Shown here piece by piece: positions 11,810 to 16,809 of a stretch of 64,000 bases of DNA; within the stretch, counting starts at the first letter, position 1; each line of letters begins with the position of its first letter. The position numbers and the translations under genes are program-made. Origin of the DNA: Antarctobacter albus (GTDB lineage Bacteria; Pseudomonadota; Alphaproteobacteria; Rhodobacterales; Rhodobacteraceae); contig NZ_FMZI01000009.1 in NCBI RefSeq assembly GCF_900101505.1, positions 62,001 through 126,000 on the forward strand. Direction: 5' to 3'. A model generated the notes under the pieces. It saw only the letters and a program-made list of their open reading frames with translations, was not told where the DNA came from and ran no database searches.

Positions 11810-13333
11810 ATGACCCTGCCCCGCCCGTCGACGATCCTCGCGCTTGCGCTACTGTCCCTCCCCCAGCTCGCGGCGGCGCAGGACATCCAGACCCGGACCT
11901 ATAGCGACGGCAGCACCTACAGCGGGCAGCTGGTGGACGGGGTCCAGCACGGACAGGGCACCTACCGGATGCCCAGCGGTTATGAATACAGCGGCAACTG
12001 GGTCATGGGAGAGATCCAGGGCAAGGGCCGCGCCCGGTTTCCCAACGGCGCGATCTACGTCGGAGAGTTCAAGCGCGGCCGCCCGGACGGCACCGGTCGC
12101 ATCGACTATCCCGACGGCGGCCACTACGAGGGCGCCTGGCTGAACGGCAAGATCACCGGCCAGGGCAAGGCACGCTATGCCAATGGCGTCACCTACGAGG
12201 GCAACTTCCTCGACGCCCAGCACCACGGGCGCGGCGTCATGCGTGGCGAAAACGGCTATGTCTATGACGGACAGTGGCAAAACGGCGCCAAGCACGGCCA
12301 GGCCCGGATCACCTATCCCGACACAGCCGTCTACGAAGGCCAGATCAGGAACGGAGAGCGCGACGGTTATGGCAGGATCACCATGCCCGACGGGCTGGTC
12401 TACGAAGGCGGCTGGGCCAAGGGCCAGATCAACGGCCAGGGCAAGCTGGTGCAGCCGAACGGCGACACCTACACCGGCGCGCTGGTAGACGGCAAACGCC
12501 AGGGCCGAGGCACGGTGAACTACGCCAACGGCGACATCTACATCGGCGAATTTCAGAACGACAAGCGCAACGGCCAGGGCACGTTCACGGGGACCGACGG
12601 CTATCGCTACGACGGCCAGTGGAAGGACGGCAGCATCGAGGGCAAGGGCCGCGTCACCTATCCCGATGGCGCCGTCTACGAGGGCCGGTTCCGCGGCGAC
12701 CTGGCCAATGGCATCGGCAAGGTCACCTATACCGACGGCGCCACCTACGAGGGCCAGTGGCGCGACGGGGTGATCCACGGAGAGGGCAAGGCCGTCTATG
12801 CCGACGGACAGATCTACGAGGGCAGCTTTGCCGATGCGCGCAGCCACGGCTACGGGGTCATGACCTACCTGGACGGCTATCGCTACGAGGGCCAGTGGAA
12901 GGACGGGCAGCGCCACGGGCGCGGCAAGGCCACCTACCCGGACGGCACGATCTACGAAGGCGCCTATGCCGCGGGAAAACGCCACGGACACGGGCGGATC
13001 GTCATGTCCGACGGCTTCCAGTACCAGGGCGCCTGGGAAAACGGAGAGATCAACGGCCAGGGCATCGCCACCTACACCAGCGGCGACGCCTATTCCGGCC
13101 AGTTCCGCAACGGCAAGCGCCACGGTCAGGGCCGCCTGCTCTATACCGACGGCACGGTGCGCGAAGGGATCTGGCGCAACGGCACGCTGGACGGCAACGC
13201 CGCCGGCCTGCCGCCGGAACCGGACCTGCCAGAGGGGCGCAACGTGACCGTGGGCGGCATCGCCGGCGCCCTACCCACGAAACGGATCGCACCCGAGGAA
13301 GGCAGCAGCCTGTCGCTGGACGCCAGGCCCTGA
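11810..13333 (+). CDS. Exported MORN-repeat protein 1
   Basis: 507 residues. A signal peptide (about 1-23, ending LPQLAAAQ) is followed by 18 consecutive 23-residue MORN repeats (bases 11912-13153), one degenerate repeat and a Pro/Gly-rich tail. Repeats follow the pattern YEGxWxxGxxxGxGxxxYPDG. MORN arrays form an extended beta-hairpin solenoid; in eukaryotes they act as scaffolds or lipid/protein binders, while the role of bacterial exported ones is little known. Repeats 1-9 match repeats 10-18 position by position, and the whole protein matches the next gene repeat for repeat. The start is chosen for the signal peptide; earlier in-frame codons lie in a non-coding-looking leader. No membrane anchor is seen, so it is probably periplasmic or secreted. 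Confidence 0.92.
   Translation: MTLPRPSTILALALLSLPQLAAAQDIQTRTYSDGSTYSGQLVDGVQHGQGTYRMPSGYEYSGNWVMGEIQGKGRARFPNGAIYVGEFKRGRPDGTGRIDYPDGGHYEGAWLNGKITGQGKARYANGVTYEGNFLDAQHHGRGVMRGENGYVYDGQWQNGAKHGQARITYPDTAVYEGQIRNGERDGYGRITMPDGLVYEGGWAKGQINGQGKLVQPNGDTYTGALVDGKRQGRGTVNYANGDIYIGEFQNDKRNGQGTFTGTDGYRYDGQWKDGSIEGKGRVTYPDGAVYEGRFRGDLANGIGKVTYTDGATYEGQWRDGVIHGEGKAVYADGQIYEGSFADARSHGYGVMTYLDGYRYEGQWKDGQRHGRGKATYPDGTIYEGAYAAGKRHGHGRIVMSDGFQYQGAWENGEINGQGIATYTSGDAYSGQFRNGKRHGQGRLLYTDGTVREGIWRNGTLDGNAAGLPPEPDLPEGRNVTVGGIAGALPTKRIAPEEGSSLSLDARP
11912..13153 (+). repeat. 18 x 69-bp MORN repeat array in a 2 x 621-bp higher-order structure
   Basis: Eighteen exact 69-base units without indels. Units 1-9 (11912-12532) and 10-18 (12533-13153) correspond one to one. 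Only units 5 and 14 carry FxDAxxHGxGVM, only 7 and 16 carry RxGxGRIxM, and only 9 and 18 carry GKRxGxG after DxYxG. This shows an older duplication of a nine-unit block. Confidence 0.85.
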
Positions 13334-13480
13334 CCCAATACCCGCGCAAGGCACCCTGATCCGGCGGCCACGTCCCCCGGCGGGCCCGCGCCCGTCGGGG
13401 CAAAATGCATTGCCCCCGGCCCCGGCCTCCTTTAGTTTCCGCAGGGTACGGACACCCAGGGACAAAAAACGGGCAAACGC

Positions 13481-14920
13481 ATGAAATCCGCAGGCAGTTT
13501 CCTTCTTGTCATCCCCTTTGCCCTGGCCGGCGCGGCGCTGGCCCAGGACGAAGAGGTGGTGACAAAACAGTACGACGACGGCGGCGTCTACGAAGGGACC
13601 TTCCAGGACGGATTGCAGCACGGTACCGGCACCTACCGCCTGCCCAACGGCTATGAATACACCGGCGAGTGGGTTCAGGGCGAAATCAAGGGCGAGGGCG
13701 TGGCCCGCTTCCCCAACGGCTCGGTCTACGAAGGCCAGTTCGCCAAGGGCAAACCCGAGGGCAAGGGCAAGATCGTCTTTGCCGACGGCGGCACCTACGA
13801 GGGCCAGTGGCTGGACGGCAAGATCACCGGCACCGGCGTCGCCATCTACGCCAACGGCGTCCGCTACGAGGGCTCCTTCCGCAACGCCCTGCACCACGGC
13901 AAGGGCGTGATGACCGCGCCCAACGGCTATATCTATGACGGCCAGTGGGTGAACGGCGTCAAGGAAGGCACCGCCAAGATCACCTATCCCGACAAGTCGG
14001 TCTACGAGGGCCGCGTCGCCGATGGCGAACGCGACGGCTTCGGCAAGCTGACCATGCCCGACGGGCTGATCTACGAAGGCACCTGGCGCGAAGGCCAGAT
14101 CGACGGCGAAGGCAAGCTGATCCAGCCCAACGGCGACGTCTACGAGGGCCAGCTTGTCGATGGCCGCCGCGAGGGCAACGGCAAGGTCATCTACGACAAC
14201 GGCGACATCTACCAGGGCGCCTTCAACAACGACCAGCGCCACGGCATCGGCACCTTCATCGGCAAGGACGGCTATCGCTACGAAGGCAACTGGATCACCG
14301 GCCAGATCGAGGGCAAGGGCAAGGTCACCTACCCCGACGGCTCTGTCTACGAAGGTCAGTTCAAGGGCGACCTCGCCAACGGCAAGGGCAAGATCACCTA
14401 TCCCGACGGCGCCACCTACGAAGGCGACTGGGTCGATGGCGTGATCCAGGGCAAGGGCCGCGCGGTCTATCCCAACGGCCTCGTCTACGAGGGCAGCTTT
14501 GACAACGCCCGCAACGACGGCTTCGGCGTGATGACCTACCCCGACGGCTATCGCTACGAGGGCAACTGGAAGGACGGTCAGCGCCACGGCGAGGGCAAGG
14601 CCACCTATCCCGACGGCACCGTCTACGAAGGCCAGTTCCGCGAGGGCCAGCGCCACGGCAAGGGCACCATCGTCATGGCCTCGGGCTTTCGCTACGAGGG
14701 TGACTGGGTCCGCGGAGAGATCAACGGCAAGGGCGTGGCGGTCTATGCCAACGGCGACATCTACGAAGGCCAGTTCAAGGACGGCAAGCGCCAGGGCCAG
14801 GGCACGATGAAATACGCCAGCGGCGAAGAGGCCAGCGGCGAATGGATCGGCGGCGCGCTGAAATCCACACCCGCGCCCGCGCCCGCACCTGACCCGGCGG
14901 AGCAGCCGGCGGACAATTGA
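13481..14920 (+). CDS. Exported MORN-repeat protein 2 (tandem paralogue of the preceding gene)
   Basis: 479 residues. It has a signal peptide (about 1-21, LAGAALAQ), then 18 MORN repeats of 23 residues (13583-14824), a degenerate nineteenth repeat and a Pro/Ala tail (PAPAPAPDP). Each repeat aligns best with the repeat of the same number in the preceding gene, so the pair arose by whole-gene duplication after the internal array was complete. It is more Lys/Glu-rich than the first copy. Its TGA overlaps the TTG start of the next gene (TTGA), implying coupled translation with the membrane LuxR regulator. Likely periplasmic; it could be a scaffold or ligand-presenting partner of that regulator (inference). 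Confidence 0.92.
   Translation: MKSAGSFLLVIPFALAGAALAQDEEVVTKQYDDGGVYEGTFQDGLQHGTGTYRLPNGYEYTGEWVQGEIKGEGVARFPNGSVYEGQFAKGKPEGKGKIVFADGGTYEGQWLDGKITGTGVAIYANGVRYEGSFRNALHHGKGVMTAPNGYIYDGQWVNGVKEGTAKITYPDKSVYEGRVADGERDGFGKLTMPDGLIYEGTWREGQIDGEGKLIQPNGDVYEGQLVDGRREGNGKVIYDNGDIYQGAFNNDQRHGIGTFIGKDGYRYEGNWITGQIEGKGKVTYPDGSVYEGQFKGDLANGKGKITYPDGATYEGDWVDGVIQGKGRAVYPNGLVYEGSFDNARNDGFGVMTYPDGYRYEGNWKDGQRHGEGKATYPDGTVYEGQFREGQRHGKGTIVMASGFRYEGDWVRGEINGKGVAVYANGDIYEGQFKDGKRQGQGTMKYASGEEASGEWIGGALKSTPAPAPAPDPAEQPADN
13583..14824 (+). repeat. 18 x 69-bp MORN repeat array, second copy
   Basis: Eighteen 69-base units in two blocks of nine (13583-14203, 14204-14824). Units 5 and 14 share YEGSFxNAxxxGxGVM, 8 and 17 share WxxGxIxGxG, 9 and 18 share the YEGQxxDGxRxGxG form. 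Unit-by-unit correspondence with 11912-13153 is preserved with no gain or loss of units. Confidence 0.85.
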
Positions 14921-16224
14921 TCGCCCGGCGCCCGCGCCGCTTTCCCGTCCTGACCCGCATCCGGCGGCCGGCCTCTCTTGGCGGTTGGGCGGCGTCGCTT
15001 CGTCAGCTTCTCATTGCGTTCTGGCTGGTCTGCGGGGTCGCCACCTCTGGCCAGGCCCAGGACGGGCCTGACACGCCCATCCTGCGCATCGGCATCCTGG
15101 CCCATCGCGGCTGGGACGCGGGCGAAACCCAGTGGACCACACTGGAACGCTACCTCGCCGGGCAGCTTCCCGGCCATGTCGTGCGCTTCGTGCCTGTCAC
15201 GCTGACCTCGGCCGGGCCCCTGATCAACGCCGGTGGGCTCGATTTCCTGGTGACCAACCCCGGCCACTATATCCAGCTTGCCGATCTCTACCCGATGAGC
15301 GTGCTGGCCACGCGCAAACGGGCCTTGCCCGATGGCAGCCATATCCGCCAGTTCGGCTCGACGGTGCTGGTCCGGGCCGACAGCGGGCTGGCCACCCTTG
15401 GCGACCTGCGCGGCACCCGGCTGGGCGCCGTGGCCCAGCAGGCCTTCGGCGGTTTCCAGATCGCCTGGTTCGAGGCCCGCGCGCAAGGCGTCGACCTGTT
15501 CGAGGACCCCGCAGAACTGGTCTTTCTGGGATTTCCGCAGGACGACATCGCCACGGCCGTCCTCGACGGTCGGCTGGACGCGGGCGTCGTCCGCAGCGGC
15601 TTGCTGGAACACCTGATCGACGAAGGCCGCGTGCCCGACGGGGTGCTGCGCGCGCTCAATGCCAATGTCACCTATACCCACCCCGAGGCGATCAGCACCC
15701 GGCTCTACCCGGAATGGCCCTTCCTCGCCCTCTCGGGCACCGATCCGGACCTGCGCGACGCGGTGGCGCTGGCGCTCTTGCGGACCGGCGACAGCGACCT
15801 TGCCGATCAGTGGGGTGCGCCGGTCAGCTATGGCGAGGCCCGCGCATTGGTGGCCGCCTTTGCCGCCCGCGCACCCGGGGCAGAGCCACCCGCCCGCAGT
15901 CCTCTGGGCACCGTCGCGCTTGCCCTCGCCGCGCTGGCCCTGGCCGGGGCGCTGGCCATCATCGCCCTGCGCCTCCGGCGCCCCGCCCCCGCGGCCGCAC
16001 CCGTGCCGACAGGGGACGTGCCCCTGACCCGGCGCGAACAGCAGGTCCTGACCCAGATCGGGCAGGGCCAGTCCACCAAGGAGATCGCCGCCGCGCTGGG
16101 CATCAGCCCCAAGACCGTCGAATTCCACCGCGCCAACCTGCTGCGCAAGTTCGAGGTCCGCAGCTCGGCCCAGCTGATTGCCCGCGCCGGACGGCATATT
16201 TCACCCCCTGAAACCGAAACCTAG
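14917..16224 (+). CDS. Transmembrane one-component regulator: PhnD-like periplasmic binding domain fused to a LuxR helix-turn-helix
   Basis: 435 residues. Layout: signal/anchor segment (about 29-48, LLIAFWLVCGVA then SGQAQ); a phosphonate/phosphate-type (PhnD-like) binding domain (about 55-320, with LRIGILAHRGWDAGETQW near its start, then DFLVTNPGHY and LGDLRGTRLGAVAQQAFGGF); a transmembrane helix (about 330-352); and a cytoplasmic LuxR-type HTH (about 368-425, LTRREQQVLTQIGQGQSTKE then SPKTVEFHRANLLRKF). It should bind a periplasmic ligand and act directly on transcription without a kinase. The only plausible start is TTG at 14917, overlapping the MORN 2 stop by four bases; no in-frame ATG occurs before residue 127. 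The ligand and target genes are unknown; nearby MORN and DsrE genes are candidates. Confidence 0.88.
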   Translation: MIARRPRRFPVLTRIRRPASLGGWAASLRQLLIAFWLVCGVATSGQAQDGPDTPILRIGILAHRGWDAGETQWTTLERYLAGQLPGHVVRFVPVTLTSAGPLINAGGLDFLVTNPGHYIQLADLYPMSVLATRKRALPDGSHIRQFGSTVLVRADSGLATLGDLRGTRLGAVAQQAFGGFQIAWFEARAQGVDLFEDPAELVFLGFPQDDIATAVLDGRLDAGVVRSGLLEHLIDEGRVPDGVLRALNANVTYTHPEAISTRLYPEWPFLALSGTDPDLRDAVALALLRTGDSDLADQWGAPVSYGEARALVAAFAARAPGAEPPARSPLGTVALALAALALAGALAIIALRLRRPAPAAAPVPTGDVPLTRREQQVLTQIGQGQSTKEIAAALGISPKTVEFHRANLLRKFEVRSSAQLIARAGRHISPPETET

Positions 16225-16350
16225 GGTTTTCCCGGGGTCGAAACCCGCAGGAAACACGGGAATCCGCCGGGTGTCAGGATGCGGTCGCCCTGCGTCACTC
16301 TGACCAGACCGGGGCGCACCAAACCGCCCCCAAGGGAGGAGACAAAGACA

Positions 16351-16809
16351 ATGACCCATTTCATCCGCCTGATCGCGATCCTGGGCCTGGCCCTGACCGC
16401 CTTCGCCATGACCGACGCCGCGCAGGCCGAAGGCTATGGCAAGCAGAAGGTCGTCTATCACATCAACTACGATGGGGGTGAGGGCAACAAGGCCTACAAG
16501 GGCGCCATGCGCAACATCCAGAACCACATCAACGCGGTCGGCGCCGAGAACATGGAAATCAAGGTCGTCATGCACGGCAACGGCCTGGGCCTGCTGGCAG
16601 CCGCCAACGGCGACGACACGATGAAAACCACCGTCGCCAGTCTCAAGGGTCAGAACGTGGCCTTTCATGTCTGCAACAACACCCTGAAGGGCCGCAACAT
16701 CGACTATTCGAACGACCTCTACGATGTCTGGGAGGATGACATCGTGCCCTCGGGCGTGGCGGAACTGTCGAAACTGCAGCAGCAGGGGTTCACCTACATC
16801 AAGCCCTGA
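16351..16809 (+). CDS. Exported DsrE/DsrF-like protein
   Basis: 152 residues with a signal peptide (about 1-26, ending TDAAQA) and a DsrE-like alpha/beta domain: KVVYHINYDGG, IKVVMHGNGLGLL, then NVAFHVCNNTLKGRN with a single conserved-type Cys108 in the loop where DsrE-family proteins carry a sulfur-binding or structural cysteine. GGGAGGAG lies well placed before the ATG. Exported DsrE-like proteins are common in Proteobacteria, often near sulfur or redox genes; the function is not settled. It follows the PBP-LuxR regulator by 126 bases on the same strand, so it may be cotranscribed or be a target of it. Confidence 0.85.
   Translation: MTHFIRLIAILGLALTAFAMTDAAQAEGYGKQKVVYHINYDGGEGNKAYKGAMRNIQNHINAVGAENMEIKVVMHGNGLGLLAAANGDDTMKTTVASLKGQNVAFHVCNNTLKGRNIDYSNDLYDVWEDDIVPSGVAELSKLQQQGFTYIKP

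Follow-up and report, generated by a model that had tools for sequence, protein, structure and literature searches.

What does a membrane-bound transcription factor sense, and what does it control, when its gene lies between genes for MORN-repeat proteins and a gene of the DsrE family? The question is raised by four consecutive plus-strand genes at positions 11810 to 16809 of a 64,000-nucleotide stretch of Antarctobacter albus DNA (contig NZ_FMZI01000009.1, positions 62,001 to 126,000; this whole stretch is called the window below, and positions are counted from its first letter). The genes encode two MORN-repeat proteins (MORN1 and MORN2), a regulator and DsrE, and the original prediction had taken the four products for one envelope-sensing module. 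Gene calls and Pfam confirmed that the genes are real, with the positions and families assigned to them (MORN 320 and 357 bits, regulator Phosphonate-bd 106 and GerE 74 bits, DsrE 43-44 bits). All four proteins showed a hydrophobic N-terminus in hydropathy plots, which together with AxA-type ends suggests export; their topology was predicted from hydropathy and modelled structure. The observation as such stands, the four-gene reading fails, and a smaller unit consisting of the regulator, a DNA site and dsrE is well supported by sequence comparison as a putative regulatory pair. We propose that regulator and dsrE probably constitute a sulfur-responsive, kinase-free one-component switch derived from the TtrS-TtrR (TtrSR) system, and that this unit came next to a core MORN gene in one ancestor.

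In facultative sulfur oxidisers, the way in which regulators perceive sulfur outside the cell has been called poorly understood (abstract of PMC11582611), and the present regulator is a concrete candidate for a receptor of external sulfur, with a proposed DNA site and target. In the portions of the open-licence PMC literature that we covered, no description of the fused regulator, of its site or of the function of the exported DsrE was recognised. Loci and genomes are cited by our own L and G labels where they have to be told apart.

The regulator and its sensor domain

The regulator gene (14917-16224, plus strand, TTG start) encodes 435 residues with an N-terminal signal or anchor, a PhnD/TtrS-like periplasmic domain at about 55-315, a membrane helix at about 330-353 and a cytoplasmic GerE/LuxR-type helix-turn-helix (HTH) at 369-422. 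Hydropathy gave a single strong membrane segment near residues 330-353, and a Pfam scan of the 435 residues detected no histidine kinase or receiver domain. Sensor, membrane helix and DNA-binding domain are thus found in one chain, the layout of a membrane-bound one-component regulator. ToxR/CadC-type regulators are built likewise, a single chain comprising the periplasmic sensor, a membrane helix and the DNA-binding domain in the cytoplasm. The regulator differs from them in its LuxR/GerE-type HTH at the C-terminus and its periplasmic-binding-protein sensor, and the orientation of ToxR and CadC is opposite to its own.

The best named relative was TtrS, whose model scored 159 bits across residues 57-314. 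This is far short of the 750 bits set as its equivalog cut-off, since the kinase parts are missing. T113, N114, P115, G116, F177, G178, G179, G205, P207, R226, E231, Y264, P265, W267 and P268 were common to all four TtrS-like kinases and to at least 20 of 21 regulators, the kinases being those of ttr-like loci after the more distant L056, L064, L065 and L071, which have no TNPG motif, had been dropped beforehand. The sensor class, as judged from these relationships, fits sulfur oxyanions.

It could be argued, however, that the regulator answers an oxyanion of phosphorus or arsenic (phosphonate, phosphite or arsenate) and that its linkage to DsrE is incidental. An AlphaFold model of the regulator (mean predicted local distance difference test score 77) matched, in a Foldseek search, the oxyanion-binding proteins PtxB, ArrX, PhnD and AioX at 14-19% identity. 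The ligands in the matched structures are phosphite or methylphosphonate for PtxB and arsenate for ArrX (sulfate in one mutant), AioX being a protein for arsenite, and the Pfam name Phosphonate-bd points the same way. Against this stand the score of the phosphate/phosphite/phosphonate model, 39.5 bits as compared to 159 for TtrS, and the association of DsrE with soxB described below. Furthermore, no phosphonate or arsenic gene was seen beside any regulator, most neighbours being judged from their first residues only. We consider a phosphorus or arsenic ligand unlikely. AioX and ArrX share the PhnD-type oxyanion-binding fold with the regulator; they are separate periplasmic proteins working with a kinase, whereas sensor and HTH are fused in the regulator.

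The downstream gene and the sox context

The dsrE gene (16351-16809, plus strand) codes for an exported member of the DsrE family whose only cysteine, C108, is conserved. A start at 16351 is more likely than one at 16279 since a good ribosome site lies ahead of the former. The score for PF02635 lies above the cut-off of 22.7, and C108 was present in 15 of 16 alignment rows, the remaining row (L044) being out of frame and not counted. Altogether 24 regulator loci were compared (the window, L038-L052, G177, G143, G156, G158, G181, G608, G752 and G662). Directly 3' of the regulator, 18 of them carry an exported DsrE, 17 of the close type and one, in G608, that is 29% identical and resembles the DsrE proteins found beside soxB. 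Four have a ModA-like solute-binding protein in this place (G156, L051, L052 and G662), and neither gene was seen downstream of the regulator in L049 and G143.

The link to sulfur oxidation was strengthened by a survey of the family in which each genus was represented by one genome, 198 in all. Exported DsrE relatives (E <= 1e-10) occurred in 47 of them, in 48 copies, and soxB (E <= 1e-100) was present in 46 of these 47 genomes versus 83 of the 151 others (Fisher p 2e-9, kinship ignored; the soxB of G069, counted among the 46, is a fragment). All eight regulator genomes carry soxB, which was found in 129 of the 198 overall (p 0.03). In G188 the genes form a run soxB-soxC-cytochrome-DUF302-dsrE with dsrE last, and in G161 and G006 soxB and a soxC-like gene flank the gene of a distant exported DsrE. 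A DsrE family gene between soxB and soxC was also reported for two Sulfitobacter type strains (excerpt of PMC11034169). It shares with the window DsrE the family and the sulfur oxidation context, and the soxB-side proteins that we aligned (L169, L170) were 25-27% identical to the window protein. Unlike these, the window dsrE is not located with sox but next to a regulator of its own. The sox cluster of the window genome is on another contig, only soxB being named by a model, and lacks a dsrE in the interval from soxB to the soxC-like gene.

The presumed target gene is dsrE in most of the alphaproteobacteria seen; in Thiomicrorhabdus and in G156 it is the gene of the ModA-like binding protein. 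ModA-like genes were located beside the regulator at L051:11967-12947, L052:12063-13037 and L147:79-1047 and in L264, and their products are 62-75% identical between alpha- and gammaproteobacteria. The L052 copy gave weak matches to sulfate/thiosulfate-binding proteins. The ModA-like gene is possibly another target of this type of regulator. A tie between the modA of the window and these ModA-like genes was rejected, identities being only 19-22% over short stretches. In Thiomicrorhabdus sp. Milos-T2 the ModA-like gene is followed by a long masked stretch of N (L051:13030-15123). A search of 62 genomes of the order round Thiomicrorhabdus returned no new regulator, only the two known ones and two frames of about 900 residues, and none of the 12 records from a plasmid search spanned 80% of the regulator.

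The palindrome at the end of the regulator gene

Juxtaposition of the gaps between regulator and dsrE disclosed an inverted repeat, CCTAGGG-N4-CCCTAGG, which usually contains the TAG stop codon of the regulator. In the window this proposed operator of 18 base pairs (bp), CCTAGGGTTTTCCCGGGG, occupies 16220-16237, with no strand assigned. It shows two mismatches to the consensus, has the regulator stop codon inside and is centred 122 bp ahead of the dsrE start codon. At up to three mismatches the site was present in 19 of the 24 regulator loci, in alpha- and gammaproteobacteria alike: seven were perfect (L045, L046, L048, L148, G608, L051 and L052), two had one mismatch, six, including the window, two, and four had three. 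For each of the 19 sites the probability of a chance match per locus was about 0.4-4% in locus-matched windows; the reverse strand of the site was itself part of the null windows, so that these values err on the high side. Conservation per position is overstated, the counts being taken from sites selected for their match. Of the loci fetched after the motif had been fixed, G608 had no mismatch and G752 three.

The position of the site is conserved as well. Of the 16 dsrE-type loci with at most three mismatches, 15 have its centre 110-138 bp ahead of the dsrE start (55 bp in G177), and this distance was kept even in loci where the site is shifted against the regulator stop codon. When the downstream gene was ModA-like, the site was retained in three of four loci (perfect in L051 and L052, one mismatch in L147). 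Perfect sites are rare otherwise, with 5 of 398 genomes of the phylum, and none of these five has a relative of the searched window proteins within 3 kb. Two repeats of the CCTAGG type, at L234:1501-1518 and about 70 bases further, were noticed in a genome from a different class of this phylum, again with no relative of the window proteins within 3 kb; the gene behind them is presumably a nucleoside phosphorylase.

The sign of control deserves consideration. A regulator that represses dsrE until its ligand arrives would be compatible with our data, which allow for either sign, and a site near the 3' end of the regulator gene could also block read-through. A distance of about 120 bp between the site and the start codon downstream nevertheless suits an activator, and we prefer activation because the characterised relatives ThsSR and TtrSR act as activators (excerpt of PMC5408782). 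Repression is accordingly quite improbable in our estimation.

Its inverted repeat and its place at the stop codon in most loci could also mark the palindrome as a terminator of transcription, or as an RNA hairpin, behind the regulator gene rather than as an operator. No terminator was predicted at the window site, however, and its RNA folding was ordinary, no better than that of shuffled sequences (z 0.48). The letters, and not just the pairing, are conserved from alpha- to gammaproteobacteria, and in L047, L149, G608 and G752 the site tracks the start of dsrE and not the stop codon. It was not found, moreover, upstream of dsrE in any of nine loci where the regulator is absent, the best matches there having 4-7 mismatches. 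A terminator or hairpin is thus very unlikely.

Proposed derivation from two-component systems and proposed mechanism

The closest parallels to the regulator are two two-component systems, TtrS-TtrR for tetrathionate and ThsS-ThsR for thiosulfate, which have in common with it a PhnD-like periplasmic sensor and a LuxR/FixJ-type HTH. They relay the signal from a kinase to a response regulator, whereas the present regulator is one polypeptide without kinase or receiver. TtrS-TtrR, furthermore, is adjacent to the reductase operon ttrBCA, while the gene next to the regulator is dsrE or that of a solute-binding protein; no ttrBCA was found among the window neighbours (nadE, MORN, dsrE and a photolyase-like gene downstream of dsrE). 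The DNA sites are also alike in layout. The characterised operator of ThsR, TATGTGGTTTACCACAAT, has 18 bp and a GG-N4-CC centre (excerpt of PMC5408782), and the site described here is an inverted repeat of the same length and centre.

A further parallel was seen in G003. The best NCBIfam names in this locus are TtrS, TtrB, TtrC and TtrA, beside a response regulator, although no Ttr model reaches its cut-off. The response-regulator gene ends with GAAACCTAGGGTTTTCCC across its stop codon, in letters identical to the end of the window regulator. Based on this one locus and on the shared layout, the simplest history would be that a TtrSR-like pair lost the phosphorelay and kept its DNA site. We are inclined, with some reserve, to see in the regulator a new class of one-component receptors that arose from TtrSR by loss of kinase and receiver and by fusion of the sensor with the DNA-binding domain, the ancestral operator being retained while architecture and target gene changed. 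A Thioclava plasmid offers a separate observation: a repeat TTAGGGTAAACCCTAA at L269:3673-3690, three mismatches from the consensus, lies about 95 bp before a gene for a large cytochrome c (weak SoxA match), which adjoins a TtrS-like kinase and a response regulator. This arrangement is possibly a two-component cousin of the same circuit.

The mechanism that we propose builds on the observed domain make-up, the pairing of regulator and dsrE, the conserved site and the co-occurrence with soxB. The periplasmic PhnD/TtrS-type domain would bind an external sulfur oxyanion (thiosulfate, tetrathionate or similar), and the signal would go straight to the LuxR/FixJ-type DNA-binding domain of the same protein just inside the membrane, with no kinase relay. 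A regulator dimer on the membrane may grip the 18-bp palindrome overlapping its own stop codon and, bound about 120 bp upstream, would activate dsrE. The exported DsrE, in turn, could serve the periplasmic Sox pathway by carrying or buffering sulfane or thiosulfonate sulfur on Cys108. In loci where the regulator gene overlaps that of MORN2, probable read-through from the MORN gene would keep the receptor constitutively made.

Several observations weigh against this proposal. In the sensor, a cysteine present in all four TtrS-like kinases, and in one of two other kinases, is replaced by G228 in 21 of 21 regulators, so that the ligand of the regulator may differ from tetrathionate. As to descent, the response regulator of G003 scores higher for FixJ than for TtrR (225 versus 173 bits), and G003 alone among five ttr-like loci has a close site, L151-L153 and L271 from Azospirillum having none. 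There is no site in the regulator loci L146, L049 and L050 (5-7 mismatches), L149 and G662 have four mismatches, and the site of L044, with three, is weak. In the genome of the window, sites with up to two mismatches occur at chance number (19, the reversed control giving 35), and the two best matches within the sox cluster, with three mismatches, fall inside reading frames; a wide regulon or a control of sox is therefore not supported, and we rejected a genome-wide regulon for lack of any excess of sites. Only 8 of the 48 exported DsrE copies lie within 12 kb of soxB, the other 40 do not, and the dsrE of G170, though close to soxB, is on the opposite strand. Finally, the 12 loci in which a MORN gene adjoins the regulator are related and hence represent few independent cases.

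Among regulators that govern sulfur oxidation in an alphaproteobacterium, SoxR and sHdrR of Hyphomicrobium may be compared with the present one. They are ArsR-type sulfane-sulfur repressors (excerpts of PMC10451225 and PMC12423496), whereas the regulator is membrane-bound and has a periplasmic sensor. If true, our proposal would describe a direct periplasm-to-DNA switch for sulfur oxyanions with a self-contained operator. It would also provide an example, in sequence, of a two-component system apparently collapsing to a one-component system with its operator kept, and possibly a simple biosensor for sulfur oxyanions that needs no phosphorelay.

The MORN genes and other neighbours

MORN1 (11810-13333, plus strand) and MORN2 (13481-14920, plus strand) each encode an exported protein with 18 Y-x-G marks at a spacing of exactly 23 residues, and the two are 62% identical. 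Among 38 loci, matches to MORN1 at orthologue level were found only in L038, L039 and L042; by this distribution MORN1 is a local tandem duplicate of MORN2 in this lineage. Both genes are neighbours outside the sulfur unit.

MORN2 is a core gene of the family, with orthologues in 192 of the 198 genomes (E <= 1e-50), and it mostly lies by nadE, which adjoins MORN in 27 of 30 MORN loci (1.5-kb flanks). The regulator, defined by sensor plus HTH and scored on at most eight candidates per genome, was detected in eight of these 198 genomes (G000, G181, G062, G070, G158, G156, G143 and G177), and in 14 of 394, G662 among the 14, of a wider draw that includes those eight. In G158, G156, G143 and G177 the MORN gene is on a different contig from the regulator. 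Independent occurrence in relatives, which the original prediction had itself named as the finding that would speak against a module, is thus what was observed.

Pairs of MORN and regulator genes do recur. The order nadE-MORN-regulator-dsrE was found in 12 of the 24 regulator loci (the window, L038-L047 and G181) from several genera, with an extra gene in L045, where an aminotransferase gene lies inside a 1.5-kb gap separating MORN from the regulator. In the other 12 there is no MORN beside the regulator, and L048, L050, G158, G177, G608 and G752 show regulator and dsrE together without it. On a maximum likelihood tree of 24 regulators and six kinases the adjacency corresponded to one change, with moderate support (89/85) and in 88% of bootstrap trees. 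It looks like one event that was inherited, and not like repeated selection for a module. The 4-bp overlap of the regulator start with the MORN2 stop had been taken to imply equal production of the two proteins. This does not follow from the overlap, which is only partly conserved: a TTG in the corresponding position occurs in the window and L038-L042, that is, in 6 of the 12 MORN-adjacent loci.

Even with the recurring gene order and these possible overlaps in its favor, a single envelope-sensing module of MORN1, MORN2, regulator and DsrE, with the MORN proteins scaffolding or presenting a ligand, is highly improbable given the unequal distribution of its members, the attachment of MORN to nadE and the single change on the tree. 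No support was found for the MORN proteins as a scaffold, and the literature portions covered held nothing useful on a role of MORN in Alphaproteobacteria, the match for MORN repeat and periplasm concerning marine viruses. What survives of the suggested partnership in sulfur metabolism is its regulator/DsrE half, through the pairing in 18 of 24 loci, the TtrS-like sensor and the co-occurrence with soxB; its MORN half does not.

The region downstream points in the same direction. In 5 of 10 MORN regions that lack an adjacent regulator, the photolyase-like gene comes directly after MORN or, in one case, past one small frame, so that regulator and dsrE look as if they had been inserted between the two. 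In Marimonas arenosa (L045:11924-16434), the space between dsrE and the photolyase-like gene holds sulfotransferase-, arylsulfotransferase- and sulfide-quinone-reductase-like genes.

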